Of a stretch of DNA of 62,255 bases, positions 2,246-49,073 are shown one piece after another. The DNA is from Bacteroidia bacterium (GTDB taxonomy: Bacteria; Bacteroidota; Bacteroidia; J057; JANWXU01). The stretch spans positions 1 through 62,255 of the forward strand of contig JANWXU010000007.1 of NCBI GenBank assembly GCA_025057395.1, given 5' to 3'. The notes beneath the pieces are model-generated. The model had not been told where the DNA came from and did no database searches. It was given only the letters and a program-made list of their open reading frames with translations. A program made the translations under genes and the position numbers. Positions within the stretch are counted from its first letter, which is position 1. Every line of letters begins with the position of its first letter.

Positions 2246-2301
2246 TTTACGTAAGTTCAGCGAAGCTAAAATTAGCTAGCACGTTTTAAAAGGCAATACA
2301 A

Positions 2302-4470: not shown

Positions 4471-4557
4471 TACAACTGCAAAAAACTACGCTTGCAGAAT
4501 ATACTAATTTTTTTATCTTTGTATAGAAAAGATAGAAGAATAATTATTATAAATTCC

Positions 4558-28835: not shown

Positions 28836-30989
28836 ATGAATAAAAAAAAAGCCCGAGCTCATAAAAAAGAGCTGCTAGTACTAGCTATACTCCTACTAGT
28901 AGGAATACATCAGGGTAAAGCTCAAAGCCCTTTTTGGCACTCCCTTCGCTCTCTAGGGGGAGGCGATGTTTATGATTTGCTTCCTATTAACAACCAAGTT
29001 TGGGCCGCCACCAATAGGGGGGTATACATAACTTCCATATACTACCCTGAGTGGGTACAACAAACCGACAACCCCCTGATGCAACAATATACATATCAAT
29101 TAATTGCTAGCAGCAAGGGTACCGTTTTTGCTAATACTCAAAACGGTATATTTCGCTACCAAGCAGGAACTTGGAGTAATATTACAAAAAATCTTCCTAC
29201 CCACATAGCAAAAAGCTTAGGATACTTAGAAGGCGTGGGTCTTTTGGTACTTACTTCTAATTTCGGAATTTTTCGCTTTTCTGAAAATATTTCGCAATGG
29301 GAACCCATTATAATAGGTGAAGATTTAGGAGCTGAACCAACTTTGTTTTCCCACCTTTACTGCGATTCTCTAGGACGCATTATTGTAGTAGAGCAAAATC
29401 GACTCTATATTTCAGAAGATAGTGCAAAAACGTGGAAAAAAAATGTTCTGCGGCTAGATGAAAATGGAGCTCCTCCTATTATCTATTGCGTGGCAAGTAG
29501 AAAAGCGGGATACCTCCTGCTAGGTACTTCCACAGGAATTTGGGAAGCCACAGAACCAACGCTTACCAATTGGCAAAAATTGGGGAAACTCCAACTAGCA
29601 ATAGGCGAAACTCTAACACGAATTGGCTATCTACCCCAAGCAAAAATTTACTATGCTGCTAGCAGTTATGGGCAAATCTTTCAACTAAGTGCACCCTACG
29701 AAAACCTCGAGTGGCAGCCCTGGTTAAATACTCCTTTTGCCAATGCTATCACCTGTGCTATATTACCCTCTAACAATCAAATTTGGTTTGGAACCGAAAG
29801 TAACGGGGTTTGGGCATGGGATTTTAACAATGGCTACTGGCGTGCCTATTCCAATGGCTTAACTAATGCTTCTATCACAGCAATATGTGCTACTTCTAAT
29901 GCCTACTTTGCCAAACTTAGTGGAGCGGGTTTATGGACATCTCGGGATAAAGGTATTACTTGGCAAGCCTCCTCCTTACCAAATGAGCAAGTTCAGTGTT
30001 TTTTAACTCATCAAGATACCATTTGGGTAGGAGTTTTAGGAAATGGAGGGGTTTGGAGAAGTTTTGATGGGGGACGTAGCTGGCAAAAATCCCAGCAGTG
30101 GGCTGAAATAGGAGTTCGGCAGCTATTACGTGCTCCTAACGGCGAAATTTACGCCCTCACTTTTGTTTCTGGAATTTGGTATTCCAGGGATAAAGGCGTT
30201 ACTTGGCAACCACTACCGAACCAAGAAATCCAACAAAAAAACTTACTCTGTTTTGCTATTACTTCCAAAGGAGAAATTATTGCAGGATGCCAAAATAGTG
30301 GCGTATACCAATACCAGCCTTTATATAATCGATGGCGAGCTCTAGGAAATATATCCATGAGTGTTCAAGCAATCCTAAGTACCCAAACTAATCAACTCTT
30401 GGCGGCAACCTCTGGAGGAATTTATTTATATGCCCCTGATAAAGACGAATGGGTACATCTTTTTTCTCCCCCCGGCTTGCCTACCGCACTACTACAAACT
30501 TCTAGAGATTCCATTTGGATAGCAACTATTGGAGGGGGAGTATGGGTAGGCAATATGCAACACTGGTACCCTGTTAACGAAGGCTTAAGTAGCCTTAAAG
30601 TCAGCAGCCTTTGCCTTACCCCGCAAAACGAAATCCTAGCCGGAACTTTAGAGGCAGGACTTTATCGAAGCCAAGCTATAAAAATTACCAACGTTACTTC
30701 TAATTATGCTCACTCTACTAATCTAAAAATATACCCTAATCCTGCCTCTGATTTTATACAAATAAATTCCCCCCTTCCACTTCCTGAAAAGTGCCTAATA
30801 GAACTATTTTCAACGGACGGCACTTTAAAATATCATACTTACTTTTCCTTATTATCTTCCCAAGATAATTTTACCATCACGCTAACTTTACCCTATCATC
30901 TTCAGACAGGTATTTATCATTTGCGGATTAGAAGTATGAATTCCACATATTCTTCTGCCTCCTCAACAATTTTATTTTTGCAAAAATAA
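28836..30989 (+). CDS. Beta-propeller surface protein with T9SS type A sorting domain
   Basis: This 717-residue protein starts with a basic stretch and hydrophobic helix (ELLVLAILLLVGIHQGKAQ), a signal peptide cleaved near AQ. The body consists of repeated four-strand blades with motifs like NNQVWAATNRGVYI, GVGLLVLTSNFGIFRF, YLLLGTSTGIW and NQIWFGTESNGVWAW. Asp-box-like turns follow: TSRDKGITWQ, FDGGRSWQKS and SRDKGVTWQPLP. These are typical of sialidase/BNR or YCF48-like propellers. The last 85 residues (LKIYPNPASDFIQI ... TGIYHLRI) form a T9SS type A sorting domain. Fold and export are well supported; no catalytic residues of a sialidase or kinase are visible, so binding or display is more likely. 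The stop codon lies inside a 14-bp palindrome. Confidence 0.87.
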   Translation: MNKKKARAHKKELLVLAILLLVGIHQGKAQSPFWHSLRSLGGGDVYDLLPINNQVWAATNRGVYITSIYYPEWVQQTDNPLMQQYTYQLIASSKGTVFANTQNGIFRYQAGTWSNITKNLPTHIAKSLGYLEGVGLLVLTSNFGIFRFSENISQWEPIIIGEDLGAEPTLFSHLYCDSLGRIIVVEQNRLYISEDSAKTWKKNVLRLDENGAPPIIYCVASRKAGYLLLGTSTGIWEATEPTLTNWQKLGKLQLAIGETLTRIGYLPQAKIYYAASSYGQIFQLSAPYENLEWQPWLNTPFANAITCAILPSNNQIWFGTESNGVWAWDFNNGYWRAYSNGLTNASITAICATSNAYFAKLSGAGLWTSRDKGITWQASSLPNEQVQCFLTHQDTIWVGVLGNGGVWRSFDGGRSWQKSQQWAEIGVRQLLRAPNGEIYALTFVSGIWYSRDKGVTWQPLPNQEIQQKNLLCFAITSKGEIIAGCQNSGVYQYQPLYNRWRALGNISMSVQAILSTQTNQLLAATSGGIYLYAPDKDEWVHLFSPPGLPTALLQTSRDSIWIATIGGGVWVGNMQHWYPVNEGLSSLKVSSLCLTPQNEILAGTLEAGLYRSQAIKITNVTSNYAHSTNLKIYPNPASDFIQINSPLPLPEKCLIELFSTDGTLKYHTYFSLLSSQDNFTITLTLPYHLQTGIYHLRIRSMNSTYSSASSTILFLQK

Positions 30990-31575: not shown

Positions 31576-31625
31576 TTTATGAGATTACATCAGAAATAAA
31601 TTTATGAGATTACATCAGAAATAAA
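31576..31625. repeat. Perfect 25-bp tandem duplication
   Basis: Positions 31576-31600 and 31601-31625 are identical head-to-tail copies; each contains TGAGATTACATCAG as core. They lie immediately beyond the giant gene's terminator, and are preceded by a degenerate TTATGTTT repetition at 31563-31579. No second occurrence of the unit was noticed elsewhere in the window. Confidence 0.9.
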
Positions 31626-31649
31626 ATGGAGCCCTTTTAAGGGCTCCAT
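31626..31649 (-). terminator. Rho-independent terminator of the giant adhesin gene
   Basis: A perfect 9-bp GC-rich stem, ATGGAGCCC (31626-31634) with GGGCTCCAT (31641-31649), encloses a 6-base loop. On the minus strand it is followed by TTTTATTT. It lies 35 bp after the stop codon of the giant gene. Confidence 0.85.
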
Positions 31650-31683: not shown

Positions 31684-34600
31684 TTATTCAAGAATGAGCT
31701 TCACATTTTGAGTTGTATTATTTAAGCTAACACTTAGACTATAGAAGCCTTTAGCAAGGTGACTTAAATTCATTAAAAACTCGTTTTCACCCTCTTTAGC
31801 TTGATACGTTTGCGTATAAACGACCTTTCCTTGCACGTCTCTAATTTGAATAGAGAGGGATTCACTTTGACTTACATTTAGTTTTAACGTCACCAGGCCA
31901 TGACTAGGATTAGGGTATATGGCTATGTCTCGCCAACCATTGAGGGTAGAAACACTACCTTTAGCTGGAGTAGTAATAAAGTGATAAGGTACAGAGGCCT
32001 GTGAACGATTACCAGATTGAATAGCACATACACTGCAATTGGCTCGGACTTGAACGGTATACTCCGTTCCAGGCTGCAGATTTTGCAGTTGCAAGGTAGT
32101 CGCAGGAACAGGCACTAGTTGACTTTGCCAAGTTTCAGCACCTCTTTCACGGTATTCCACTATATAGCAAAGTGCCTGCTGTACGGCATCCCAAGTAACT
32201 GTTGCCGCATTTGTAGTTACCCGATGAACTACTAAGTTACCCGGTATAGGACAAATATCCGTGCAATTTCGAACTACTACAGGTACTGCAACCATAGGCG
32301 AAGCACATCCCCCTACATAAGCCGTTACACTATAAACCCCACTCTGGGCAGTCCCTGCATTAGATATCACGGGATTTTGCTGGTTAGAGGAAAAACCTCC
32401 TGGACCTGTCCAAACATAAGTAGCCCCTAATATTGGAGAAGCAAACAATTCTATCTTTCCTCCCGTGCAGACAGTGCCGTTAGAGCTTGCAGATAGACCA
32501 CTTGGAGTAGGTATTACTACCACCTCCGTAGTAACAGGATTGCTATTGCATGCTCCTAACTTAACACTTACCTCATAAACACCAGCCTGCGCAGAACCAC
32601 TTATTAGCCTTGAGGGTGCTTGTTCATTTGAACTAAAACCATCTGGTCCTTTCCAGAGGTACTGAGCTCCAGGTATAGGTGTAGCAAATAATGATAAAGT
32701 TTGTCCCTCGCAAACGGGACTGCTACTCCCAGCTGTAAAGGCAGGGGGTGCTGGCCAAACTACTACATTAACAGCATTTACCTGTGAACTGCATTTGCCT
32801 ATCCAAGCTACTACACTATAGCTACCAGCATCACGCACAGTAACGTTAACTATCTGAGGATTTTGCTCATTACTACTAAAGCCATTAGGACCTCGCCAAC
32901 TATATTGTGCATTTGCAACTGTGCTGGCAGTTAAAGTAAGAGTTTGTCCTTCGCAAACGGGACCATTTGAGCCTGCTGTAATAGAAGTCGGGCTCGGATT
33001 AATAGTAACAACAGTGGTTGATACAGCTGAGCTACATCCTCCTAGCACAGCAATAACCGAATACACACCACTTTGAGAAGTAGTAGCATTGTAAATTACG
33101 GGGTTTTGCTCGTTACTAAAGTATCCTGCTGGCCCGTACCACGCATAGCTAGCCCCCGGAACCATGCTGCTAGAAAGCTGTAGCATATTGCCCGCACACA
33201 CGGGCCCGCTGTTGCTAGCAGTTATAGCACCCGGAGACGGATACACACTTACCGTAACAGTACGCACCTGAGAGGTACAACCATTTATTACAGCTATTAC
33301 ATTATACCTACCCGCCTGGGCGGAAGTTACGTTATTCAATACAGGGCTTAACTGAGTACTAGAAAATCCTCCGGGCCCTGTCCATAAGTAAGTAGCGCCC
33401 GGAATAAGGGTAGTAGACAGCTGCAAAGTTGAACCCGCACAAACTGGTGAATTACTAGAAGCTTGACTAAGTACCGGAATTGACTGTACTAGCACCTGAA
33501 CTAATGCTGGTTGTGAAGTACAGCCACTTGCTACTACTACTACACTATAAGTACCACTGTGCAAACTTGTAGCATTAGAAATAACAGGGTTCTGAATCGT
33601 GGAGCTAAATCCTTGTGGTCCACTCCAAATATAACGAGCTCCACTTTCTCCATTAGCATTTAGCCTAAGTTCACCCCCTTCGCAAACTAAAAGATTTGCT
33701 TGTACCTCAGGCCTTGCTGGAGATCTTCGTAAATTAACCATAGCAGTTTGAGCTCCCGAAGTACAGCCCTGAGAAATCGCTACGACTCTATATTCTCCTG
33801 CGTTATTACTCCCTATATTAGGTATACTGATTTGACTTGTTGTTGCAGAAAAACCATTAGGTCCTACCCACCAATAAGAAGCACCCGGTATTTCTACGGC
33901 TGCCAATTGAAGCGAAGTACCCTCACAAATAGTTGTATTACCTAAAATACCACCCATCACCGGACGTGGACGAACCTCTATACTAACGGTTCTTGCTTCT
34001 GAAGTACAATTTCCTGCAATAGCAACAACACTATAGTTACCTAGGGCGCTAGTTGTAATACCATTAAGTTGAACCACCCTATTTGTAGAAACAAAACCTG
34101 CAGGACCTTGCCAATAATAATTTACCCCGCTTGGCGAAGTAATACTTAAGATTGCAGTGTCTCCTGTACAGTAGAATGGACGATTTGCAGTAGCAACCAC
34201 ATTAGTAGGCCTTTGTATTACTGCTAGCTCGGTTACAGCTGCAGATGAAGTACAATTACCTACTACCGCTACTACTTCGTACCTACCTGCCTTCAAATTC
34301 ATTCCACTTAAAAGGATTTCTCGACCCTGTGCACTAAAGCCCGACGGCCCATTCCATAGGTAATTAGCTCCCGCTTGAGCATTCACAGCTAGAGTAGCCA
34401 CTCCATCATTGCAAACAGGACCAGAGTTGGTAACTACAGGAGTTTGTGGCGCCGGAGCTACTAGCACTGATACTGTAGTTTGGGTAGTACATCCTCCTAG
34501 TATTGTATTCAAGGAGTATACACCACTATGTTGAGTATTTGCATTATTAATTCTTACTTCTCTTTGGTCCCATACAAAGTTGTTAGGGCCTATCCAACGA

Positions 34601-37600
34601 TAAGATGCGCCTGCTACAGAGGTGGCATTTAGTACTATGCTTTGCCCTGCACACAACGGAGAGTTACTTGAAATTTCCACCATTGCCGCAGGTCTCACTT
34701 GAACTGTTGTTCTAGCTGTATTGGAACTACAATTGCCTAAGCGAACAGTAAGATTATAAGTGCCTGCATGTAAAGTGGTAACATTATCTATTCTAGGATT
34801 CTGCAAAGTGCTTATAAAGCCTTGGGGGCCAGTCCATTCATATGATGCACCTTCCACTGGAGAAGCAGTTAATTGTAAAGCTTGCCCTGCACATAGCGGA
34901 CCATTATTACCTACAGTAGGCGTTTGGGGAACGGGTAAAATTCTCACTTCAGCCAGAGCTGGGGCGGAAGTACACCCGTTCATAATAGTACGAACCGTAT
35001 AATTTCCTGCGTCCCCAATACCTACATTAATACGAACAGGATTTTGGAGCGCACTTGCATAACCACTAGGCCCTGACCATTGATAAGAAGCTCCCGGTAC
35101 CATGCTCGCATTTAACTGCAGATTACCTCCTACGCAAACCGGGGAGTTAGTTGATACATTAGGAGCCGGTGGAGTAGAACGAACAATTACATTAACAGAA
35201 GAAACTTCCGAAGAGCAAGCGCCTATGATAGCTCGAACACTATATTGCCCACCATTCTCAAGCTGCACATTTGAAATAACAGGATTTTGCTCGTTGGCAA
35301 AGAAACCTGCCGGACCTTCCCAGAAATATTGAGCACCCGGAATATTAGTTGCGAAAAGTTGTAGCGTACGACCTGTACAGATAGGACCATTACTAGAAGC
35401 TATCACTGATTGAGGACGTGGAAGTACTAATACACTTATTGGAAACGTACTTGCCTGACATGTGCCTACTGCTATGGTAAGCTCATATACCCCACTATGA
35501 GCCGTAGTCACATTAGCGATAGTAGGCATTTGTTCCGTTGAAGTAAAGTTACTAGGACCACTCCAACGATAAGTTGCGCCTACAATTAGCTCAGCTGTAA
35601 GGCGTAAAGTCTGCCCTGCGCAAACAGGTGAGTTACTCAGTAAATTAGGCATAGGAGGTATTCCTTGTACTATAACATCAGCAACTCCCTCATTAGAGCG
35701 ACAGCTGCCTCGACGTGCAACTACTGAATAAATTCCTCCGTCCAAGGGAGAATTTGCAACCCGAGAAATGCTTTTACCCGTTGCGCTAAAGCCACCAGGT
35801 CCTTGCCACTCAAATACAACATTATTGGTATAATCACCCTCGGCTGTAAGTATAATTGTTTGCCCTGCACATAAGGGAGAATTATGTACGATAGAAGGCG
35901 TAGCGGGAATATCAATTAATTCAACTCTGAAAATAGCTTCAGAAGAGTAGCAGTCTCCCACCCTAGACTTAACCTTATAAATTCCCCCCTGATCAACACT
36001 AGTAATCAATCGACTAATAGATACTCCCTCTGCCACAAAGCCATTGGGTCCAGTCCATTCGTAAGAGACTAAATTTTCTGGATTAGAAATAGTAAGCACT
36101 AAATTTTGACCTACACAAAGGGATGAGGTTCCATTAATGGAAGGAGTAGCGGGCAATGCACGAATCACAACGGGTATGCTTACGGGTAGGGAAGTACAGC
36201 CCCCTACTATAGCTACTACACTATAATTACCCGCATGAAGGGAGGTAACGGAGGGGATACGTAATATACTACCACCTGTAGTTACGTCTAAGCCGTTGGG
36301 TCCAATCCATCGATAAGTAGCTCCCAAGGGCCCGATTGCAGTGAGGTGTAAGGGTTCACCCCAACACCTTGGACTATCACTTGCCACTAAGGGCGGTTCA
36401 GGCTTAGATTTAACTTCTACTACTGTAGTAGCAGGCGTAGAAGTACATCCCTCTAAAATATATACTACACTATACGTTCCTGCTGAAGCAGGAGAAAGAG
36501 CCGGTACAACCACTGTGTTTCCTACACTTGCCATTCCATTGGGTCCTCGCCAATACAAAGTTCCTCCTACTCCACCACTCGCACTCAATTCTACAACTTC
36601 ACCTACACAACGGGGTCCATTATTTCTTGCAATTGGGGTTGGAGGAATAGACTTTACTCGAACCGGCACAGTAGCCTCTGCAGAGGTACAACCGCCTACA
36701 ATTGCAACTACACTATAAATTCCAGAAGTGACAATACTGATATTTGGACGTATCACAAAAGAACCAGTTTCCCTAAATCCTTCGGGTCCCTTCCATAAGA
36801 AAGCAGCATTTTCTTGTCCATCTGCGCTAAGCTTTAGAGTCTCTCCCTCACAAAGAGGAGCATTAGTTGCGGGTAAAGGAGACTGCGGAACTGGTTTTAC
36901 TATTATCGTTGTACTTGCAGGCAGGCCTTTGCAACCCTGTAGCGCAGGAATTACAGTATAAACCCCTTCCATTGCCATTGTTAAACTATCAATTTGTACA
37001 ACACTGCCGGTTGCACTAAATCCATTGGGTCCACTCCAGCTGAATACTACTCCTTGCTGAGGATTACGTACTCTTAGTACTGCAGTAGCACCTTCACATA
37101 AATTAGGAACTTCGACCAAACTTGGAATAGAAGGTCTACCTCTCACACTTATTGCTGCAGAAGCTGGCAAAGAAGTACAGCCATTCACGACCGCTCGTAC
37201 CCTGTAAATACCACTATCTGCTAAAGTCAATGAAGAACGTCTTACTGTTGCGGTAGTGCTTCCCCCATTCCACCCATTAGGTCCTTCCCATAACCACGTT
37301 GTATTTGCTCCCCCAACAGCTGTTAGCTCTAAAGTTTCTCCTTCGCATAAGGGGGAGTTATGCCGCAATATGGGAACGCTAGGAATAGGATTTATTTCTA
37401 GCCGTGTGGTAGCCACTCCTTCCGCTTTGCACCCTTCGGGTGAAATATATGTTAAACTATAAATTCCTGCAGCGCTCGGAAGGCCCGCCAAACTAACTAC
37501 CCTTCCTGTAGCACTGTAACCATTGGGTCCTGTCCAAATATAAGTGCCTGCGGGTTCCTCTACGATGCTGCCAAATAGCTGTGCAGTTTGCCCCCTACAC

Positions 37601-40600
37601 ACTGGCCCGTTATTAGTGGCTCTGGGAAGTTCAGGCAAAGGTAGCACATTCACGTCCACCCTACCAACCCCTGTAGTACATCCATCTAGCAAAGCCCGAA
37701 CATAATATTCACCCTCCTGCAGTTGTGTTACATTACTAACCGTTATTTGGGCAGAGGGACCTATTCTTCTAAAGAAGGAAGGACCTACCCACTCAAATTC
37801 AGTATTCAATGGAAAGTCAGCAATGTTAAGTAAGGATAAGTTAAAACTTTCTCCTACACATAAATTACGACCTTCTCGCCCCGGAATACTAACACGAGGA
37901 ATTGGAGTGGGCAATGAAACTTTTAAGCTAACACGTATAGTAACTACCTCAGAACTACAATTCCCGATGGTAGCATACACAGAATAAACCCCTGCCTTTT
38001 CTGGTGTATCTATAATTCGTGCTACTATTGGTCCTGTTGCTGTATAATTAGCAGGTCCACTCCAGTAGTATTGAGCCCCTGGCGTGCCTGTCGCAGTCAA
38101 GGAAACAAGCTCCCCCGGACACTTAGGTCCATCTTGCATTACTGTGGGAGGAATAGGCTGTGGATTAATCGTAGCGGTTACTGGTACCCTAGCGCTCGGA
38201 CACGATCCTCGAACACTCTCAATATAAAATACAGTAGTGGTTTGTAAACTACCAACAGAATAGAGATATGGCGGTAAATTAATATTTGCAATTGCTGCCC
38301 CCCCTTGTGGCTGAGTAAATACTTGAATGCGATCTCCAGCAGGCTCGGTCATAGCTATAGTAATAGTCAAAGGTCCTACACCACAGCGCGAGGCCGAAAG
38401 GGCAATGGGAGCTCCGGGCTGTAAGTCTACACGAACTACCGCCGGAACGCGCTCACTAGTGCAATTAGAAGAGGCAATGAAGCGCTCTAAGTAAAAAGTA
38501 GTAGTCTGTGTAATACTAGGCGTAGTTAAGGTTACATTTGAACTGGTAGCTCGATCTATAATTCCACCCCCCAATGGAGAGGTATAAAGCCTTATTTCAC
38601 TACCCCATTCTAATCCTTGACTCATAGTAAAAGTAGCTATTCCTGCACCGCACCTCGTGATAGCGGGCGCTACTGGTGGTTGGGGTTTGGGATGTAGAGT
38701 AACGCTAACTGCTTTACGCGGTCCTTCACATCCAGTTATTGCATCATAAGCAGCAACATACAAAACTGCACTGTTAGAAAGGCTTGGTGATTGGAGCATG
38801 TATGGCACCGTACTAGACTGGGCTAATACTGTTCCGCCCGCAGGAGAATCATAAAGATGCATGCGTGTACCTCCCGGATTGCCCATAGCTGCCGTAATTA
38901 TTACGGCTCCTTCTCCACATCGGCTAATGTCTGGTGCATCGGGCATACCTGGTAGTGGATGAACCTTAGCTACCACCTCCCTACGTTCACTACTACATCC
39001 TGTTTGAGTATTATAGCTTTCTAAGTAAAAGGTAGTAGTAGTAGCAATTACGGGTGTATTAACCAGATATGGAGAAACTATGCTTAAGCCTACAGGTATT
39101 CCTCCTGTAAGTTGTGTAAAAAGCCGTATTTGGTCTCCGGTTGGAACACCCATTTCGGCGCGGAAAGTTACAGATCCTGCGCCACACCGCTCTACAGCTG
39201 CTGCATTTGGAATACCCGGAGCAGGATATACGATTATCGTTAAGGGTATACGGCTAGAGCTGCATCCTGTAGCTGTATTTATGGACTGAAGATAATAAGT
39301 GGAGGTAGTATGAATAATAGGCGTCTCAAGAATATAAGGAGGAACTGCATCTTGCGAAATGGGATCCCCTCCTGTAACTGAACTGTAGAGCGCAATTAAG
39401 TTACCGGGAATAAGGCCCATTTGGGCTGTAATCATAGCGCTTCCCCTACCGCAACGGCTAGGTACTTGATAATCTGGCGGCGTTGGTAGTGGTAAAATAG
39501 AAGCAATGGCAGCTGTTTTCTCGCTTTCACACCCAGTTTGTGCGTCATAAACTGCAAAGTAAAAAGTGGATGTGCTACGAAGGTCTGGAATTTCGAAATG
39601 GTAAGGGGACTCGCTATCTACCCTTTCAGGTTCTGCAGCTGCTTGGGCTGTATATAACCGAAGCGCCGAACCCTGCGAGCTAGTCATAAATGCAGTAAAT
39701 CTTACAGATCCATTTCCACACCGTGACACGTCATTCACTAATGGAGAAGAGGGTAAAGGTTTTACCTCAGCTACTACTTCCAAACGAGGACTTGAGCAGC
39801 CCGCATTAGTACGACTTTCTACATAAAAAGTAGTAGTAGTTATGATAAACGGGGTAAAGAGTTCTCCGGGGTTAGACGCTGAAGTACTCACTGGCTCGCC
39901 TCCTTGGGGAGCTGTAAATAACCTAACAACATTACCCGTTGGACTTATCATCAGAACTGATAGCATTACTCTACCACTTCCACACCTGGGTATTGCCTGC
40001 ACTATTGGTACACTTGGTTGATTTTCTATAGTTATTCGAATAGGCTTTCGCTCCGAAGAGCAGCCAGTAAGAGTATTATAGCCTTCTAAATAATAAGTTG
40101 AAGAAGTATTTACAAATGGCAATTCTACCACGTAAGGTTCTTCAGTAGCAATAGATACCGGCACCCCCTCTTGGGGCAAGGTATAGATACGAATCTGATT
40201 ACCTCTTGGGTTCCCTTGCAGCACAGAAAAAGATATGGGACCCGCTCCGCATCGAACTTGGTCAGCTGCTAAAGGCAGTCCCGGATTATGGTTTACTATA
40301 GCTGTTACCTCCAGACGTTGACTTTCGCAGCGTGTAACGCTGTTGTAGGCTGCTAAGTAGAACTTAGTAGTAGTTTCTATAATAGGCGTTTCTACAATAA
40401 AGGGGTTATCACTGGACTCTGATAGGACTGCTATACCTGTAGGAGAAGCATATAAACGTAAAGTATTAGCCACAGGCTGTCCTAATAAAGCCGTAAAGAC
40501 AACTGTTCCTTTACCACACCGCATAGCACTTGAACTCGAAGGTAAGCCTGGAACAGGATTAATCTTAGCAAAAGCTGGCTGCCGTGCACTTGCACATCCT

Positions 40601-43600
40601 GTATTCATATCATATGCTTCAACATAAAAAGTAGTATGGGTGCTAATAAACGGCGCACTTAAATTGTAGGGTTCCGAGGCATCTTCTGATATGGGTGCCC
40701 CTCCTACTGGTACATTGTATAGCCTAACAGCATTTGCTGCAGGAGCGGTAAGTACGGGAGAATAAGTAACTACCCCCGGTCCGCAACGCCCCGCTTCATT
40801 AACTTGCGGAATACCCGGAACAAGATTGACTTTTACAACCACTGGAGAACGTTCTGAACTGCAGCCTGTATTATTCCTACTAGCAATATAAAAAGTAGTA
40901 GTGCTACTTATAGTAGGAGTAACTAACTCATAAGGGGGGTTATTATCTGCAGAAATAGCTACTCCTCCAGTAGGAAGAGAAAAAAGTTCAATTTGCCCCC
41001 CCTGCGGTGCCCCCATTTGAGCAGTAATAGTAACTTGCCCACTGCCACAGCGTTCAATACCACTAGCACTCGGGCGCCCCGGCAGCGGTAAAACACTAAC
41101 AAATACAGCCGTCCTTTCACTTACACAACCAGCTCCATTAGAAATAGCTTCAACAAAAAATGTTGTACTTTGGACAACAGAAGGAGTAATAATTTCAAAA
41201 GGTGGATTATTATCTAGAGCTATAGCCGAACCGCCGCTAGCAGTAGTATATAGCTGGATTGCACTTCCTGGAACGCTACCCATCGAAGCAGTAATTACCA
41301 CTTCTCCCTCTCCACAGCGGCTTACATTCGGCGCTATAGGTGGAGAAGGTTTTGCTACCACTGTGGCGACGGCTGCAATTCTTACACTTTCACACCCCGA
41401 TTGTTCGTCTCTACTTGCAAAATAAAAACTTGTGGTTGTAGTTATAATAGGAGTAGTTACCACATAGGGAGCACTATTAGCCGTAGCTATTGATAAGCCT
41501 CCAATAGGGCTGTTATACATATGAATTCTATCACCTGCTGGAGCTCCCATGACTGGCGTAAAAGCTACTGTACCTGCTCCACAACGCGTTACACCTGGCA
41601 CATTCGGGGCTGCAGGCAAAGGACTAATAACTGCACTAACAGCTAGTAGATCACTTGCACAGCCTGTTTGAGTATTATGAGCCGCTACATAGTAAATGGC
41701 ACTTGTAGACAATATAGGCGTTGTAAGAACAAAAGGAGCCTGCGATACTTTCTGTAAAGGTTCAATTGTATGAGGGTCCATAAAGAGTCTAATTTCGTCG
41801 CCTGGTTGTGCTCCCATTGTTGCAGAAAAGGTAACTATACCTGGTCCACATCTTCTGCCGCCGCTAATTATAGGTTGGGATGGCTTAGGCAGTATCCTAG
41901 CCTCTACCACCACTCTCTCACTCTCACAGCCCGTTTCCACGTCGTAGCGGCTAATGAAGTAATTTCTTATTACCGGCTGATTACCCGCTGTTATACTTTG
42001 GGTAGTAAGCTCCCATGGATATGTTTCATCATATGAAATTAGATTGTTACCTAAGGGACTATCATATAACCTTACACCGCCTATTGTTCCCCCACTGCCA
42101 CTTACGTAAAACGTTACTCTCCCTGTGCCACATCGAGATTCTGATTGAACTACTGGCGGTGGCGGAACTGGTTGAATAATAGCCCGTACAGCCACTCGAG
42201 GACTTTCACACCCTGTGATTGTATTTTTACTGCTAGCATAGAATAGAGTATTAGTACTTATATCATGAACTTGAAATTCATAGGGAATACTAGAGTCTGT
42301 CATTATGGACTGAGCTTCTTGGGGGCTAGTATAAAGTAAAATTTGGTTCCCTGCGGGTGTGCCCTGACTAGCAACAAAAGTTACACTTCCGCTTCCACAT
42401 CTCTTAGCATCACTTATCTGTGGAGTAGCGGGTATTGGATTAATAGTAACGATTACTGGCGTTCGAGGACTTTCACAACCTGTTACAGCACTAAAACTAG
42501 CTAAATAATACGTTCGATTTTGCGTAACAATGGGGGTAGTAAGCTCATATAAAGAAGAGGCATCTACCGCCAATGGTACCTGTGCTTCAGGAGTATCATA
42601 TAAACGAATTTCCGTACCTGGATTTCCAGACATAGAAGCCGTAAAAGTTACACTTCCACTCCCACATCTGGATAAATCAGAAGCCAGCGGAGCACCCGGA
42701 ACAGGCTTTATTGTTACAGTAATGGGAGTTCTTGAACTTTCGCAGTTTGAGCCATTTCGCCCTACAGAGATGTAATAAGTTGTATTAGTGCCAGTTTCCG
42801 GAGTTCGTAGAATAAAATGGGGCCCAAAATTTTCATCAATAACAGCTCCTCCACTAGGTACACTATACAGTCGAACATACTGCCCCCACAGACCGTTAGG
42901 GTTCACAGTAATATCTACTTTCCCTACTCCACATCTACTCGCTACCCCCACTACAGGCGGCGCTGGTACAGCTTCTACTACAGCTACTGCCGGAACGCGC
43001 TCACTCTCGCAACCGCTTACCAAATTTTTAGCAGCAACGTAAAAGGTAGTAGTCTGACCAATCATAGGAGTAGTTAATACATACGGAGCTATTGCATCCG
43101 AAGTAATACTTGTTACATCAGAGGGTCCAGCATACAAAAGAACAATATCGCCAAGTGTTAGCCCCATCGAGGCAGTAAATGTAACAGCCCCTACTCCACA
43201 ACGAACTACTTGAGGTACTTGCGGCGGTGAAGGAAGAGGATGCACAATTCCTGCTACAGGAGTGCGTTCGCTTACACAACCAGTTATTGTATTCACACTT
43301 TCCAAGTAGTAGATAAGGGTAGTAGTTAAATTAGGCACGCGTAAGTAAAATTCATAGCTAAAATCTTCATCAATAGGCGCCCCGCCTAGAGGAAGTGTAT
43401 ATAGTCGCATTAAATTTCCCAAAGGAGGAGTCATGAACCCCGTAAACTGAATTGGTCCGGCACCACATCTTGCTACATCTTGAGCTTGTGGTGGCCCCGG
43501 AATAGGATTAATAATTATAGGAACCGCTTTTCTTTGGCTTTCGCACCCCGTATTATTATTTCTTGAACTTACAAAATAAGTAGTACTTGTTGTAATAGTA

Positions 43601-46600
43601 GGAATTGTGAGCTGATAGGGAGAAGTATTATCACTTACCAAAAGTACTCCCCCTGTTGGCGCATCGTAAACACGCATTTCGTTACCTAGTGGAAAACCCG
43701 GCAGAACAGTAATCATAACGCTTCCTACACCACAACGGGCATTGGCCCCTACCTCTGGCATACCCGGTACTTCGTAAATTTCGGCTAGTACCTTACGCCT
43801 AGGACCAGAACAATTAAACTCGTCTTTTGCATTCAAGTAAAAATACTGAGTAGTAGTAATAAAGGGCGTTTCAATTTCAAAGGGAAGAACAGAATCAACA
43901 GCATAAGGAATAGTAGCTATTGCGGAAGTGTACAGTTCAATTTTATTACCTCCTATAGCTCCCATAGAAACCGTAAATATTACCTTACCAGGACCGCAGC
44001 GTACAACACCTGGTGCACTAGGAGGATCAGGAGGAATAATTACCGTGACTTTCACCGGAACGCGATTGCTAGCACAGCCTGTGCCACTAGCATAACTTTC
44101 TAGATAAAACACCGTACTTGCACTAACTACTGGGGTAACTACCGTATAGGGAGGTGTATTATCAGTAGCTATAGGTAAACCACCAGTAGGCAAAGTAAAT
44201 AATCGAATTTGATCGCCAGGAGGAGTTCCCATTTGTGCAGTAAAAGTAACCACTCCTTCACCACAAACCCTTAAGTTATCGCTCAGTGGAGTAGCAGGCC
44301 CAGGCTTAGGGTGCACCACAGCAGATACAGCCGCCCTATTACTTACGCATCCTGTTGCAGTATTAGTCACTTCTACATAAAAAGTAGAGTTGGTAGCAAC
44401 AATTGGAACGGTTAGCTCATAAGGTTCAGCTTGGGTTACACTGATAGGTACTCCCCCCTGTGAAGTAGAATAAATAGCAACCATATTACCACTAGGAGTG
44501 CCCGGCCTTACAGTAAAAATAACTGGCCCTTCCTCACAACGCGATACCGTCTTGCTTGTAGGTAGCCCTGGAATAGGATGAATAATGGCATTTACTGGAA
44601 CTTTTATACTCTCACAACCCGTGCCCGTATTCTTGTTAGAAACGTAATACGTAGTACTTACGCTAATATCCCCAGTTTTGAGTTCATACGGCGCAACTGC
44701 ATCCGAGCTTATAATTACTCCTGTATTGGGGTTATAGAGCAACGCCAAATTAGCCCCGTTTCCAATTTGCATGCTAAATGCTATTTCCCCTGCTCCACAG
44801 CGGCTAGCATTTGTTACCACGGGAGGTTCAGGAATAGGATTAATTTGCACCCTTACAGGCACCCTCTCGCTTTCGCAAGCAGAGTTACGGGAAGCTAGGT
44901 AAAAAGTAGAAGTTTGTAAAACACTACCCAAAACGAAACGAAATGGCTCAGTATCATCCACCAATATCGGGCTTCCTCCCTGTGGCTGATTAAACAAGGC
45001 AATATCTCTACCTGCAGGTAACGCCATTCCTGCAGTAAGCTCTACTACACCCGGCCCACAACGAGAAACATCATTAACAAGGGGTGGTGAAGGCCGATCA
45101 TATACATAAGCTACTACAGGTACTCGATTACTGCTACAGCCTGTTTGCCTATCTACTCCGCTTATGTAGTAGGTAGTATGAGAAAAAATAGGGGGCGTTG
45201 TTAGGATAAATGGATAAGAATTATCAGTATCTAGCACCGTTCCTCCTATTTGTTGATCGTGCAGTACAACCGAATCAGCCTGCGGAATACCCACCGGAGT
45301 AACAGAGAAACTAATACTACCTACTCCGCAGCGCGTAACATTCGATATTTCCGGCTCCTTGGGTATAGGATTAACTACTAAAACCACAGGAATTCTAGGG
45401 CTAACACACAATGTTTGCTCTCTTATACTTTGAATCCAAAAAGTAGTGGTCTGTGTAACTGTAGGAGTACGAAGTTCATAAGGAGCCACCTCATCTACAG
45501 CGATAGGATTGCCCCCTGCACTCTGGGTATATAGGTGAACATGAGTATTAGCAGTAGGACTATGTGCTGTGAAAACAGCATCTCCTATACCACAGCGAGT
45601 GATATTTTGCGCACTAGGAGGAGCAGGAGTTATGTACACGTGCGCTACATATTCTTGCCTTGCGCTTTCACATCCTGTTTGGCTATTATAGGCTGAGATC
45701 CAAAAAGTAGTAGTTTGCGTAAGATGCGGCGTTGTAACCATAAAGGGGGAAACAAAGTCTACGTCTATGGGCGAGCCTCCTACTGCCTGGCTATAAAGAT
45801 TAGCCTGTGTTCCAAATGGACCCATAGCTACAAAAAAGTTCACAGGGCCTGGGTCGCAGCGATATTCATCTCTTGATATAGGAAGGCCAGGAATAGGATT
45901 TATTGTCGCAATTATAGGAACCCTTGTTGTACATCCTGTAGCTATAATGCGAGATTGTAAGTAGAACACGGTAGTAGTAGAAACTAGAGGAATAGATAAC
46001 TCGGCAGGAATAACATTAGAAGATGCCAAGGGCACACCACCAGAGGGAACGTCAAATATAGCAAGCTCGTCTCCTGGCGGAATTCCATTTAAAGCAGTAA
46101 ATGTAACGCTTCCCGGTCCACAACGACTAATAGGAACAGCGGAAGGGGGACCCGGAACGATATTTACAGTTGCTGTAACTGGTACTCTATTACTTTCACA
46201 TTGTGTATTACTATTATAAGAAGAAACATAAAATACTGTGCTCGTGGTAATATTAGTACTTAAAGTTTCACTTTGATCATAAAAGTAAGCTATTGCTCCA
46301 GGGGTAGTATACCATCTTACCACATTACCATTGGTACCCACCTGTGTAGGTATATCTATAGGACCTGGCCCACATCTTTCTACATTCGTCACAGTAGGAA
46401 GGCTAGGAACAGGATGAACAGTAACCTCTACTGTATGGACAGGCGAGGTACAACCGCTGGGGTTATTAGTCACCTGTAGAGTTAAAGTTTTTGTTCCTGG
46501 CTGAGCCCAGTTAATTGTAAAAGGACCTGCTGTAGATGGTAAAGGAGCTTGAGCACAGCCTGCACAGTTCCAAGCAAAAGTTGCAGAAGTTGCTCCCGTT

Positions 46601-48840
46601 CCTGTGCCCCCATGACCTAAATATGTCATTGTCACATCAATAGGCCCTGCATTAGTATTAGCACAAATCTGCATGGGATTCACACTAAAGGGAGCATTTG
46701 GAACTCGGTTAATAGTAATAACAGCCGTACCTGTAGCAGAACATCCACTGCTCGTAACCTGCAAAGTTACCGTTTTCACACCGTGGTTAGCCCACGTTAC
46801 AATATGTGGCCCCTGCGTAGTAGCATCCGCAATACCCACACATCCATCACAACTCCAAGAGTAAGTGGTGGGGGGATTACCTGGGGTTCCGGTAAAGGAA
46901 AGTTGTGTACTTTGCCCTTCACACCTTTGTTGGTCTGCTATTGTTACCGTAGGAACTGGATAAGGATTTACTACTACCTCCACAGACGCTGTGGTAACAG
47001 ATGCGCAGCCTGCGCTTGAAATACTCAAAGTAACTGTTTTAATACCCGACGTGTTCCATACTAATTGATGAGGACCCTGTGTTGTGGGGTTGCTAGTACA
47101 ACCATCGCAGTTCCATGTATACACATGGGGTCCACTAGGGCCTAACTGACCTGTAAAAGAGACCGTAGCTGGAACACCTGTACAAACAGGTCCAGTAGCC
47201 TGCAGAGCTGGAATAGGAACAGGATTTACTGTAACTGTAGTAGTTACGGTTACGGGCCCGCAGCCCGGCGATACTTCTGTTAAAGATACCGTTTTTACAG
47301 AAGCAGTTGGGGGGTTAGAAGTATTACTCCATGTTACCTGGTAAGGCCCTGTACCGTTAGTAGTAGCAGGGTTTTGTGTGCCCCCATCAAAATTCCACGT
47401 GTAAGTATTATTAGGGGAAGTAGGAGTTGTTATTGATATAGTGGTAGATTGATTATGACAAACAGTTGCAGGGTTAGGGGAAATAGCAGGTTGCGGGGGC
47501 GGATTCACTACGACCGTCGCTGTTTGAGTAAAAGTACAAGCTGGGCCGCCGCCATCTGCTGTTAAAGTTATTGTTTTAGTACCTGCTGTAGTCCAATTTA
47601 CGTTTATTGTGTGAGGCCCACTGCTAGTAACAGTTTGCTGAGGATTAGCCCCCACATCAAAATTCCAAGTATAAGTCACTCCCGCCGCTCCCCCTCCTTG
47701 GGGTTGAAAAGTTTGTTGGGGTCCACCAGCACACAAGGGTCCTGCCGGCGCAGTAAAATTCGCCATAGCCGGCCCTCCGCCTACGTTCACCACCACAGAG
47801 TGAGTATATGTACAAGTTTGGGCTGGACCCCATTGGGTATTAGGACCCGAGCCGGCTGTAGTATTTGAGTTAAAATTTGTAACTGTATAGCTCGGATCAG
47901 GCAAATTTATAGTTGCACTTTGCAAATAGCCTAATCCTCCTCCAATTCCATCCAAAATGAGAAACTTCCAAGTTCCCGTCGCAGGAGAGCCAGCAAACCC
48001 AGCAAAATTTGTAATCGTGGGAGTTATACCACAATCAGCAGTAGTATTGCTAACGGGAGAATAAGTACCGGTGTAGGGCGCACATGGATTGAAAGTATTC
48101 CATAGCTGTATTCCTCCTCCATCTTGAAACGTAGCATTGTATCCTCCTGGAGCACTTCCACAAAAACCTGCCCACCCTGCTAGTCTCAAAATTTTACAGT
48201 CGGGAGAAACTAAGTATAGGCGTAAATCGTAAGTGAAACTCGGGATAACAGGATAGGGTAAGTTTACTTGTGCAGACATCGCTGCTGCTTGAGCAGCGGT
48301 CAAAGTTCCTGGGGGACCTGAAACATATACGTTGAATGTTTTTCCTCCTGTTGCACAGCAATTATTTCCGTCTGTAATAGCAGAGCCATTAGGTCGATGC
48401 TCACAAACAGTTAAAGTTATAGTCTTAGGACCGCAAGTAGGCCAGGATACATTGTGGGGTCCCATACCCGTAGCAGTCGCAGGAGAAGCGCCTGTACCAA
48501 AATTCCAATTGAAAGTGCGACAAGTTGTAACATTAGCATTACCAGGAGAGCAGGTTCCAGTAAGACCGTTAATTAAGGCGTTGTTACACCCTGCTCCACT
48601 AGATTGTGCGGGCACTTGTACCTGTACTGTTTGATTGAGAGTAGGATTAGTGTTACTTACAGTAAAATCAGCTGGTCCTGGGAAATTAGCAGGCGGTATA
48701 GATGGACAGTTATTATTCGTACACGGATTAGGGGGAGGACACGGCGAGGTAGAAAGTTGTGCCCGTATTCCCTGCCAGTTTAGCAATAATGATGCTAAAA
48801 TGATTATTAGTAGGTGGTTATTTAGAATAGACTTACACAT
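31684..48840 (-). CDS. Giant 5718-residue multi-repeat surface adhesin with T9SS type A sorting domain
   Basis: This single open frame of 17,157 bp encodes a protein with the following order, by reading. A signal peptide (about 1-28) is followed by a PKD-like domain (30-165) and a jelly-roll resembling the proprotein-convertase P domain (about 183-320). Five more PKD-like domains run to about 810. Then come 31 repeats of about 89 residues (810-3563) with signature RCGxGxVTFT ... IRLYTxPxGG ... TTTFYV ... GCESxR, and 24 Ig-like repeats of about 82 residues (3563-5520) with GPVCxGQTLxL ... YxWxGPxGFS ... GxYxVxAxxGxCxS. A fibronectin type III domain (about 5530-5625) and a type A sorting domain (5640-5718) close it. 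The middle repeats resemble the Ig-like domains associated with CHU_C proteins. In size it approaches SprB-type gliding adhesins. It is predicted to be exported by T9SS and anchored on the surface; the ligand is unknown. It has no operon partners. Confidence 0.93.
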   Translation of the reverse strand: MCKSILNNHLLIIILASLLLNWQGIRAQLSTSPCPPPNPCTNNNCPSIPPANFPGPADFTVSNTNPTLNQTVQVQVPAQSSGAGCNNALINGLTGTCSPGNANVTTCRTFNWNFGTGASPATATGMGPHNVSWPTCGPKTITLTVCEHRPNGSAITDGNNCCATGGKTFNVYVSGPPGTLTAAQAAAMSAQVNLPYPVIPSFTYDLRLYLVSPDCKILRLAGWAGFCGSAPGGYNATFQDGGGIQLWNTFNPCAPYTGTYSPVSNTTADCGITPTITNFAGFAGSPATGTWKFLILDGIGGGLGYLQSATINLPDPSYTVTNFNSNTTAGSGPNTQWGPAQTCTYTHSVVVNVGGGPAMANFTAPAGPLCAGGPQQTFQPQGGGAAGVTYTWNFDVGANPQQTVTSSGPHTINVNWTTAGTKTITLTADGGGPACTFTQTATVVVNPPPQPAISPNPATVCHNQSTTISITTPTSPNNTYTWNFDGGTQNPATTNGTGPYQVTWSNTSNPPTASVKTVSLTEVSPGCGPVTVTTTVTVNPVPIPALQATGPVCTGVPATVSFTGQLGPSGPHVYTWNCDGCTSNPTTQGPHQLVWNTSGIKTVTLSISSAGCASVTTASVEVVVNPYPVPTVTIADQQRCEGQSTQLSFTGTPGNPPTTYSWSCDGCVGIADATTQGPHIVTWANHGVKTVTLQVTSSGCSATGTAVITINRVPNAPFSVNPMQICANTNAGPIDVTMTYLGHGGTGTGATSATFAWNCAGCAQAPLPSTAGPFTINWAQPGTKTLTLQVTNNPSGCTSPVHTVEVTVHPVPSLPTVTNVERCGPGPIDIPTQVGTNGNVVRWYTTPGAIAYFYDQSETLSTNITTSTVFYVSSYNSNTQCESNRVPVTATVNIVPGPPSAVPISRCGPGSVTFTALNGIPPGDELAIFDVPSGGVPLASSNVIPAELSIPLVSTTTVFYLQSRIIATGCTTRVPIIATINPIPGLPISRDEYRCDPGPVNFFVAMGPFGTQANLYSQAVGGSPIDVDFVSPFMVTTPHLTQTTTFWISAYNSQTGCESARQEYVAHVYITPAPPSAQNITRCGIGDAVFTAHSPTANTHVHLYTQSAGGNPIAVDEVAPYELRTPTVTQTTTFWIQSIREQTLCVSPRIPVVLVVNPIPKEPEISNVTRCGVGSISFSVTPVGIPQADSVVLHDQQIGGTVLDTDNSYPFILTTPPIFSHTTYYISGVDRQTGCSSNRVPVVAYVYDRPSPPLVNDVSRCGPGVVELTAGMALPAGRDIALFNQPQGGSPILVDDTEPFRFVLGSVLQTSTFYLASRNSACESERVPVRVQINPIPEPPVVTNASRCGAGEIAFSMQIGNGANLALLYNPNTGVIISSDAVAPYELKTGDISVSTTYYVSNKNTGTGCESIKVPVNAIIHPIPGLPTSKTVSRCEEGPVIFTVRPGTPSGNMVAIYSTSQGGVPISVTQAEPYELTVPIVATNSTFYVEVTNTATGCVSNRAAVSAVVHPKPGPATPLSDNLRVCGEGVVTFTAQMGTPPGDQIRLFTLPTGGLPIATDNTPPYTVVTPVVSASTVFYLESYASGTGCASNRVPVKVTVIIPPDPPSAPGVVRCGPGKVIFTVSMGAIGGNKIELYTSAIATIPYAVDSVLPFEIETPFITTTQYFYLNAKDEFNCSGPRRKVLAEIYEVPGMPEVGANARCGVGSVMITVLPGFPLGNEMRVYDAPTGGVLLVSDNTSPYQLTIPTITTSTTYFVSSRNNNTGCESQRKAVPIIINPIPGPPQAQDVARCGAGPIQFTGFMTPPLGNLMRLYTLPLGGAPIDEDFSYEFYLRVPNLTTTLIYYLESVNTITGCVSERTPVAGIVHPLPSPPQVPQVVRCGVGAVTFTASMGLTLGDIVLLYAGPSDVTSITSDAIAPYVLTTPMIGQTTTFYVAAKNLVSGCESERVPAVAVVEAVPAPPVVGVASRCGVGKVDITVNPNGLWGQYVRLYSVPSGGAVIDENFGPHFILRTPETGTNTTYYISVGRNGSNCESSRTPITVTIKPVPGAPLASDLSRCGSGSVTFTASMSGNPGTEIRLYDTPEAQVPLAVDASSLYELTTPIVTQNRTYYLASFSAVTGCESPRTPVIVTINPIPATPQISDAKRCGSGSVTFVASQGTPAGNQILLYTSPQEAQSIMTDSSIPYEFQVHDISTNTLFYASSKNTITGCESPRVAVRAIIQPVPPPPVVQSESRCGTGRVTFYVSGSGGTIGGVRLYDSPLGNNLISYDETYPWELTTQSITAGNQPVIRNYFISRYDVETGCESERVVVEARILPKPSQPIISGGRRCGPGIVTFSATMGAQPGDEIRLFMDPHTIEPLQKVSQAPFVLTTPILSTSAIYYVAAHNTQTGCASDLLAVSAVISPLPAAPNVPGVTRCGAGTVAFTPVMGAPAGDRIHMYNSPIGGLSIATANSAPYVVTTPIITTTTSFYFASRDEQSGCESVRIAAVATVVAKPSPPIAPNVSRCGEGEVVITASMGSVPGSAIQLYTTASGGSAIALDNNPPFEIITPSVVQSTTFFVEAISNGAGCVSERTAVFVSVLPLPGRPSASGIERCGSGQVTITAQMGAPQGGQIELFSLPTGGVAISADNNPPYELVTPTISSTTTFYIASRNNTGCSSERSPVVVKVNLVPGIPQVNEAGRCGPGVVTYSPVLTAPAANAVRLYNVPVGGAPISEDASEPYNLSAPFISTHTTFYVEAYDMNTGCASARQPAFAKINPVPGLPSSSSAMRCGKGTVVFTALLGQPVANTLRLYASPTGIAVLSESSDNPFIVETPIIETTTKFYLAAYNSVTRCESQRLEVTAIVNHNPGLPLAADQVRCGAGPISFSVLQGNPRGNQIRIYTLPQEGVPVSIATEEPYVVELPFVNTSSTYYLEGYNTLTGCSSERKPIRITIENQPSVPIVQAIPRCGSGRVMLSVLMISPTGNVVRLFTAPQGGEPVSTSASNPGELFTPFIITTTTFYVESRTNAGCSSPRLEVVAEVKPLPSSPLVNDVSRCGNGSVRFTAFMTSSQGSALRLYTAQAAAEPERVDSESPYHFEIPDLRSTSTFYFAVYDAQTGCESEKTAAIASILPLPTPPDYQVPSRCGRGSAMITAQMGLIPGNLIALYSSVTGGDPISQDAVPPYILETPIIHTTSTYYLQSINTATGCSSSRIPLTIIVYPAPGIPNAAAVERCGAGSVTFRAEMGVPTGDQIRLFTQLTGGIPVGLSIVSPYLVNTPVIATTTTFYLESYNTQTGCSSERREVVAKVHPLPGMPDAPDISRCGEGAVIITAAMGNPGGTRMHLYDSPAGGTVLAQSSTVPYMLQSPSLSNSAVLYVAAYDAITGCEGPRKAVSVTLHPKPQPPVAPAITRCGAGIATFTMSQGLEWGSEIRLYTSPLGGGIIDRATSSNVTLTTPSITQTTTFYLERFIASSNCTSERVPAVVRVDLQPGAPIALSASRCGVGPLTITIAMTEPAGDRIQVFTQPQGGAAIANINLPPYLYSVGSLQTTTVFYIESVRGSCPSARVPVTATINPQPIPPTVMQDGPKCPGELVSLTATGTPGAQYYWSGPANYTATGPIVARIIDTPEKAGVYSVYATIGNCSSEVVTIRVSLKVSLPTPIPRVSIPGREGRNLCVGESFNLSLLNIADFPLNTEFEWVGPSFFRRIGPSAQITVSNVTQLQEGEYYVRALLDGCTTGVGRVDVNVLPLPELPRATNNGPVCRGQTAQLFGSIVEEPAGTYIWTGPNGYSATGRVVSLAGLPSAAGIYSLTYISPEGCKAEGVATTRLEINPIPSVPILRHNSPLCEGETLELTAVGGANTTWLWEGPNGWNGGSTTATVRRSSLTLADSGIYRVRAVVNGCTSLPASAAISVRGRPSIPSLVEVPNLCEGATAVLRVRNPQQGVVFSWSGPNGFSATGSVVQIDSLTMAMEGVYTVIPALQGCKGLPASTTIIVKPVPQSPLPATNAPLCEGETLKLSADGQENAAFLWKGPEGFRETGSFVIRPNISIVTSGIYSVVAIVGGCTSAEATVPVRVKSIPPTPIARNNGPRCVGEVVELSASGGVGGTLYWRGPNGMASVGNTVVVPALSPASAGTYSVVYILEGCTSTPATTVVEVKSKPEPPLVASDSPRCWGEPLHLTAIGPLGATYRWIGPNGLDVTTGGSILRIPSVTSLHAGNYSVVAIVGGCTSLPVSIPVVIRALPATPSINGTSSLCVGQNLVLTISNPENLVSYEWTGPNGFVAEGVSISRLITSVDQGGIYKVKSRVGDCYSSEAIFRVELIDIPATPSIVHNSPLCAGQTIILTAEGDYTNNVVFEWQGPGGFSATGKSISRVANSPLDGGIYSVVARRGSCRSNEGVADVIVQGIPPMPNLLSNSPVCAGQTLRLTAELIVGATYRWSGPSNFTSTEQMPTIANVTTAHSGVYELTIAVGTCQASTFPISVLVLPRPQSVIASSNGPICTGRTLQLFATNIPGAQYFWEGPAGFFANEQNPVISNVQLENGGQYSVRAIIGACSSEVSSVNVIVRSTPPAPNVSTNSPVCVGGNLQLNASMVPGASYQWSGPSGYASALQNPVRINVGIGDAGNYTVRTIMNGCTSAPALAEVRILPVPQTPTVGNNGPLCAGQALQLTASPVEGASYEWTGPQGFISTLQNPRIDNVTTLHAGTYNLTVRLGNCSSNTARTTVQVRPAAMVEISSNSPLCAGQSIVLNATSVAGASYRWIGPNNFVWDQREVRINNANTQHSGVYSLNTILGGCTTQTTVSVLVAPAPQTPVVTNSGPVCNDGVATLAVNAQAGANYLWNGPSGFSAQGREILLSGMNLKAGRYEVVAVVGNCTSSAAVTELAVIQRPTNVVATANRPFYCTGDTAILSITSPSGVNYYWQGPAGFVSTNRVVQLNGITTSALGNYSVVAIAGNCTSEARTVSIEVRPRPVMGGILGNTTICEGTSLQLAAVEIPGASYWWVGPNGFSATTSQISIPNIGSNNAGEYRVVAISQGCTSGAQTAMVNLRRSPARPEVQANLLVCEGGELRLNANGESGARYIWSGPQGFSSTIQNPVISNATSLHSGTYSVVVVASGCTSQPALVQVLVQSIPVLSQASSNSPVCAGSTLQLSTTLIPGATYLWTGPGGFSSTQLSPVLNNVTSAQAGRYNVIAVINGCTSQVRTVTVSVYPSPGAITASNSGPVCAGNMLQLSSSMVPGASYAWYGPAGYFSNEQNPVIYNATTSQSGVYSVIAVLGGCSSAVSTTVVTINPSPTSITAGSNGPVCEGQTLTLTASTVANAQYSWRGPNGFSSNEQNPQIVNVTVRDAGSYSVVAWIGKCSSQVNAVNVVVWPAPPAFTAGSSSPVCEGQTLSLFATPIPGAQYLWKGPDGFSSNEQAPSRLISGSAQAGVYEVSVKLGACNSNPVTTEVVVIPTPSGLSASSNGTVCTGGKIELFASPILGATYVWTGPGGFSSNQQNPVISNAGTAQSGVYSVTAYVGGCASPMVAVPVVVRNCTDICPIPGNLVVHRVTTNAATVTWDAVQQALCYIVEYRERGAETWQSQLVPVPATTLQLQNLQPGTEYTVQVRANCSVCAIQSGNRSQASVPYHFITTPAKGSVSTLNGWRDIAIYPNPSHGLVTLKLNVSQSESLSIQIRDVQGKVVYTQTYQAKEGENEFLMNLSHLAKGFYSLSVSLNNTTQNVKLILE
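32280..38155 (-). repeat. 24 Ig-like repeats of about 82 residues in the giant adhesin
   Basis: Each unit runs from a Pro-rich hinge through (N/S)GPxCxGQxLxL, YxWxGPxGF, an asparagine-containing strand near QNPxIxN, and GxYxVxAxxGGCTS. Almost every unit carries two Cys about 50 residues apart, probably one disulfide across the sandwich. Units 11-24 are more alike than units 1-10, suggesting later expansion at the C-terminal side. Copies differ widely at DNA level, so they are not recent duplications. Confidence 0.85.
38155..46401 (-). repeat. 31 RCG-type repeats of about 89 residues in the giant adhesin
   Basis: Units begin after a P(x)PxPP hinge with RCGxGxV, then FTAxMGxPxGxxIRLYTxPxGGxPI, PYELxTPxI, TTTFYVxSxNxxTGCESxRVPVxA. 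The Cys of RCG and the Cys of GCES are kept in nearly all units, suggesting one disulfide per domain. Unit 17 has an altered length and unit 9 a shifted RVCG, so the array is old and drifting rather than freshly copied. Confidence 0.87.
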
Positions 48841-49073
48841 AGCCTAGTTTTAGATTAAAGACTCAATAATTATAATACACTTTATTGTATTTTATCGAGT
48901 AAATTTACTCTGGATTTACGATTCTGCCAAAAAAAGGTAGCTACATTGGTACAAAAAAATCAAGCTTTCAAATTTTTTTGAGATAATGTTTTGAAAATTT
49001 CCTATACTAAATCCTATAAAATTATAGTTTTTTAATTTGCACTAGTAAAAACGCAATAAGTGAGTAATTAAGT
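48841..49073. promoter_or_regulatory. Upstream region of the giant adhesin gene with palindromes
   Basis: This 233-bp AT-rich region holds the presumed promoter of the giant gene (minus strand) and the end of polA. A perfect 14-bp palindrome, GAGTAAATTTACTC, lies at 48897-48910, about 57 bp upstream of the start codon. A short hairpin with AATACA / TGTATT arms lies closer to the gene near 48873-48890. No good TAnnTTTG match was found on the minus strand here. The palindrome is a candidate operator. Confidence 0.4.

Follow-up and report, generated by a model that had tools for sequence, protein, structure and literature searches.

A giant T9SS-type protein with a two-part Ig-like stalk and its many paralogs in the genome of a Bacteroidia bacterium

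The window, that is, the whole stretch of 62,255 nucleotides analyzed here, carries on its reverse strand (31684-48840) a gene for a giant protein that is probably exported by the T9SS and held at the cell surface as a single-chain stalk, where it would show a P-domain-like head about 200 nm out for binding. The frame, the domains and their order, the paralogs and the presence of SprA and PorU were computed. The gene belongs to a genome-wide family in which a fixed order of repeat classes is combined with swapped heads, and this family is more interesting than the giant gene alone. No report of this giant gene set was found in the literature.

The translated frame comprises 5,718 amino acids with zero internal stops, which bears out the single uninterrupted frame of more than 17 kb described in the first-pass annotation. 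All of its parts lie on the reverse strand. A putative signal peptide was recognized by eye at aa 1-27 (48760-48840), with a Lys, the hydrophobic stretch LLIIILASLLLNW and the junction IRA/Q, and is followed by an N-terminal head (aa 28-345; 47806-48759) that resembles a proprotein-convertase P-domain near aa 158-313. The domains proposed earlier for this end, PKD and P-domain-like, fared differently. The PKD-type domains (about aa 346-814; 46399-47805) matched PF18911 PKD_4 with 64.3 bits in three stretches, but the P-domain PF01483 reached 12.3 bits in the head, under its cut-off of 21. Homologous proteins of another genome (G001) scored 49 and 69 bits with PF01483, and the P-domain-like nature of the head is suggested through these homologues only. 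Next comes the class-1 array (aa 815-3562; 38155-46398; RCGxG...TGCxSxR), in which an Ig_7-type unit of about 89 aa recurs 31 times, and then the class-2 array (aa 3565-5527; 32260-38148; NxPxCxGxxL...WxGPxGF...GxY...GCTS), where an Ig-like unit of about 81 aa is present in 24 copies. At the C-terminus, the FN3 and sorting signal annotated previously correspond to a fibronectin type III domain (aa 5541-5602; 32035-32220; PF00041, 38.5 bits) and a T9SS type A sorting domain (aa 5641-5716; 31693-31920; PF18962 Por_Secre_tail, 58.9 bits).

The gene is probably transcribed alone, since an intrinsic-terminator-like hairpin (31626-31649, reverse strand) lies about 35 bp past its stop codon and a gap of 233 bp (48841-49073, reverse strand) separates it from polA on the 5' side. 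The hairpin, whose 10-bp stem contains 6 G-C pairs and whose tail is rich in T, is a consensus match only, as are the weak sigma-70-like promoter matches within the gap. Immediately past the hairpin there is a perfect 25-bp direct repeat (31576-31625).

The numbers of about 31 and then about 24 repeats given earlier proved to be exactly 31 and 24 when counted with HMMs built out of the protein's own class-1 and class-2 repeats, and the two blocks did not overlap. Mean pairwise identity was 36% among class-1 repeats and 35% among class-2 repeats. The Pfam family Ig_7 (PF19081), described as 'Ig-like domain CHU_C associated' (Pfam), matched, well outside chance expectation, the halves of the class-1 array with E = 4e-121 and 1.5e-127 and the halves of the class-2 array with E = 1e-39 and 2.8e-40, while the four array quarters scored 396, 417, 135 and 137 bits against a curated cut-off of 27.3. 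Besides, each repeat carries two Cys in class 1 and two in class 2. A joint doublet alignment, later superseded by separate triplets per class, placed both classes on one register with the two Cys of every repeat sharing columns, and in the profile-profile comparison the class-1 and class-2 triplets aligned in register with a probability of 95% (E = 2.6e-8). AlphaFold2 models of the triplets, for which repeats taken from the window itself were aligned, were all-beta, with a mean pLDDT of 95.8 for class 1 and 95.5 for class 2. Thus, the two checks that had been proposed for the repeat units, a Pfam search and a three-repeat structure prediction, gave scores over the Ig_7 cut-off and confident all-beta models for both classes, which are two branches of one Ig-like fold or superfamily. 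The switch from a Cys-containing type to an Ig-like type suggested previously stands as an ordered switch; the contrast does not, both types being Ig-like and bearing two Cys.

Comparison with other genomes shows a different distribution of the two branches. The triplet profiles of the two classes were built alike and share an equal bias towards their own genome; of 100 genomes searched, 96 gave a match to the class-2 profile, the best score elsewhere being 273 bits vs 294 bits in its own genome, and the class-1 profile reached up to 319 bits in its own genome and did not exceed 138 bits in any of 99 relatives. Class 2 is a widespread type and class 1 a lineage-specific branch. None of the other relatives sampled belongs to the family of the host lineage. 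In a loose first look, done alike for 395 genomes of the class, the genome of the giant gene had the highest number of Ig_7 candidates (1,825), the next one having 321.

The giant gene of the first-pass annotation is not a singular one in its genome. In this assembly (G000; 4.08 Mb, 244 contigs, 96% complete, with the giant gene on contig C222) at least 57 giant frames were present (57 were read), and 22 of them, the 5,718-aa protein included, have class 1 ahead of class 2 in their main blocks. These were all the two-class giants obtained when repeats had to score at least 35 bits and each class had to occur five times or more. The two classes were cleanly separated in 16 of the 22; five had one to three class-2-scoring domains before the class-1 block, and in the remaining one (L054) the classes were interleaved at the start. 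Since the order is common to related paralogs, these 22 giants do not represent 22 independent events. Sorting-domain matches numbered at least 150, all above the cut-off, from 248 first-look candidates, and at least 56 frames with this domain are no shorter than 2,000 aa and sum to 654 kb, or 16% of the genome, the largest being a frame of 7,941 aa (C167:33334). A comparison of 41 upstream stretches revealed no conspicuous motif in common.

One paralog is a protein of 6,343 aa (L049, contig C180), which pairs with the giant repeat by repeat through 31 class-1 and 24 class-2 repeats; this pairing extends for about 5,500 aa, with an identity of about 47%. No repeat-sized indel was seen between the two arrays and no repeat was gained or lost; past the shared arrays, the paralog has about 690 extra residues, including two class-2 repeats, and then its CTD. 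This collinearity, together with a head that is unlike that of the giant, indicates that array length has been fixed across deep divergence while the head was swapped. Other stalk compositions also occur in the genome. Four giants (L032, L038, L050, and L055) carry class-1 repeats only, in 32-39 copies, and have heads that start alike (WYVD/WFVN...NGTQQ), with a weak beta-helix match in L038. A giant of 7,635 aa with a DUF7948-like start (L070/L071; G000:C88:18436-41551) has repeats of the PAGGTFSGPGI type that match neither class HMM and constitute a third stalk type.

The head of the giant had a single match, in a fragment ended by the edge of its contig (C92). This locus (L085; G000:C92:3640-5808) repeats the N-terminal part of the giant with 71% identity and runs off the contig end, and it is probably a second giant cut by assembly. 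The head is the best-conserved part of the two proteins, with 72-88% identity over most windows of the comparison, vs 40-67% in the PKD domains. At the same end, other giants carry subtilase, trypsin-like, M43 or matrixin, CUB, and P-domain heads, as well as DUF7948 with a propeller, beta-helix, DUF2341, and LTD. A smaller frame of 2,290 aa (L084; G000:C167:2564-9644) combines an N-acetylmuramoyl-L-alanine amidase, CUB and FN3 domains and a sorting domain.

To our knowledge, the P-domain is not among the adhesive domains listed for fibrillar adhesins. Monzon et al. (2021) described these proteins as having stalk repeats, a C-terminal anchor, for which Por_Secre_tail is listed, and a head distant from it (PMC8286594), features that the giant protein shares, although no adhesive domain from their list was identified in it. 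By criteria that differ from ours, the same authors reported a maximum of 21 FA-like proteins per proteome and of 73 stalk domains per protein (PMC8286594).

The export by the T9SS proposed in the first-pass annotation is supported by the class of the sorting domain, which is type A (TIGR04183, 45.3 bits for a cut-off of 23; the PF18962 score compares with a cut-off of 27), and by the presence in the same genome of SprA (C63, 2,147.8 bits) and of the PorU sortase (C184, 1,225.2 bits). A type B CTD (TIGR04131) gave no match in the giant at E 0.1, and the neighboring protein P0005 scored 53.7 bits in the same search. In Porphyromonas gingivalis, type A cargo is cleaved by PorU and linked to A-LPS (PMC9143113). 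The surface anchoring, extension and binding role that we infer for the giant protein would come about in a similar manner: after Sec secretion, it would be passed across by the SprA translocon, PorU would cut the type A CTD, and the new C-terminal end would be held on surface lipopolysaccharide. The 24 class-2 domains would then be cell-proximal and the 31 class-1 domains outside them, followed by several PKD domains, and from the end of these 55 Ig domains plus PKDs the P-domain-like head would attach to surfaces, polymers or other cells. Type A cargo may alternatively be released. Across the paralogous set, one two-part stalk plan is probably reused with many different heads, proteases included. 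The extended length of about 200 nm put forward earlier appears reasonable when scaled from GhlA of Litorilinea aerophila, a beads-on-a-string hook protein of about 6,600 aa with 49 domains and about 180 nm (PMC13319060), whose spacing of about 3.7 nm per domain is applied here to the 55 Ig domains. GhlA is likewise a giant domain chain, but it is made of DUF11 domains, belongs to a member of the Chloroflexota and is likened here by description only.

For both repeat classes, the nearest relative with a solved structure is grappling hook protein A (GhpA) of Aureispira sp. CCB-QB1 (PDB 9FLP and seven further entries), a protein of 5,898 aa that extends through its filament and assembles as a heptamer (PMC13319060); according to a review, the hook protein is secreted by the T9SS and the T6SS is the reported weapon of ixotrophy (PMC11205867). 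GhpA was the best PDB match of the class-2 profile (E = 0, 3,154 bits, 30 stretches) and of the class-1 profile (E = 5.8e-88), and its fragments ranked first in Foldseek for the models of both classes. The idea that the giant forms an undescribed type of surface filament was therefore not sustained: the kind of filament has already been described, while novelty seems to lie in the two-part stalk and in its expansion. These matches, the similar lengths of the two proteins (5,718 vs 5,898 aa) and the alignment of the class-2 array along GhpA 1143-4647 would suit a multi-chain filament like that of GhpA, in which copies of the giant would bundle along class 2 and leave class-1 arms and heads distal for grappling or capture. 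Such an assembly is possible but unlikely, given several differences between the proteins. The N-terminal head of the giant (aa 1-400) had no clear match in GhpA, its PKD part aligned weakly with GhpA Ig repeats, and GhpA was absent among the best 60 matches of its C-terminal piece. The best class-1 stretch fell in the same Ig region of GhpA as class 2, and no dedicated class-1 counterpart or separate class-1 array was seen in GhpA. Among three heads of other giants compared with GhpA, two (L052 and L054) had no match and the third (L057) matched only its Ig repeats, so that none of the three carries the GhpA head. Moreover, the T6SS sheath VipB (PF05943) had no match in the 96%-complete genome, although a divergent T6SS may have escaped this search, and class-2-type repeats are so common among the genomes searched that Ig likeness alone does not denote a hook. 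The Ig chain of the giant is GhpA-like, from which membership of the hook family does not follow.

Two further readings have a slightly lower probability, similar for both. In one, the CTD would be cut and the chain shed into an extracellular matrix or sheath, with the Ig stalks acting as fibers. Release of T9SS cargo into the medium is known (PMC9143113) and the huge number of giants suits a matrix, but a conserved head, a stalk of fixed length and the variety of enzymatic heads fit display better, which makes shedding rather improbable. The other, equally doubtful, is a combinatorial display, in which a fixed two-part stalk would be offered with dozens of swappable heads, some of them proteases, the GhpA-like class 2 bundling at the base while free class-1 arms carry mixed tips, so that the filaments would be multi-armed.

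Compared with these, a role in gliding, as a mobile adhesin like SprB, is far less plausible. SprB of Flavobacterium johnsoniae is also a T9SS-exported giant repeat protein of similar size, with about 6,500 aa and a filament of about 150 nm (PMC13104615), but it is a type B protein with a SprF partner (PMC9143113), whereas the giant described here is type A and has no such partner. The first-pass annotation used the missing SprF as an argument for novelty, which loses its force because SprF/PorP-like proteins serve type B cargo (PMC9143113), so that their absence beside a type A protein is expected; of five PorP/SprF genes in the genome, none was located in the contig of the giant gene. The suggested likeness to SprB-type adhesins may be further weakened by GldJ, for which this draft genome gave only partial matches below the cut-off that adjoin a PorP gene and look GldK-like, and this might speak against a gliding role.

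An assembly or gene-calling artefact is hardly conceivable: the genome is a draft in 244 contigs and several giants reach contig ends, but the 5,718-aa frame is intact, its most alike repeats share at most about 56% identity, and dN/dS was about 0.10 against the paralog fragment on C92 (N-terminal 697 codons, with dS near saturation). Since Tandem Repeats Finder detected no DNA-level tandem array inside the ORF, it is very improbable that the assembly has collapsed or created repeats here. Both repeat arrays are old and not collapsed. Homogenized or expanding repeats were also considered and rejected, as identity did not rise above 76% for any pair of the approximately 1,490 repeats in the genome set. 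The same applies to horizontal transfer as the source of the raised GC of the region: GC at codon position 3 (0.283) equals that of neighboring genes, and the excess sits at codon position 2, i.e., in composition.

Other genes of the window include one for a 2,436-aa protein that joins numerous PAS domains to the ATPase domain of a histidine kinase (8451-15761, forward strand), within which lies a 468-bp tandem DNA repeat with 83% matches (10592-11467). Four further T9SS cargo genes (2302-4470, 4492-6720, 28836-30989 (+), and 53030-56476 (-)) comprise FG-GAP, M43 peptidase and propeller proteins with type A CTDs and one protein with a type B CTD. Besides, an RtcB-type RNA ligase adjoins a Wzz-type chain-length determinant (22640-24091 (-) and 24329-25621 (+)).

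Overall, the devotion of at least 16% of a 4-Mb genome to giant stalk proteins is exceptional among bacteria, and no other of the 395 genomes examined in the class stands out as strongly for Ig_7. If the two-part stalk is indeed a holder of fixed length with exchangeable heads, these paralogs would provide a natural set for investigating how stalk length, domain class and head act in adhesion or capture, and for asking whether grappling-hook-like filaments extend past Aureispira.
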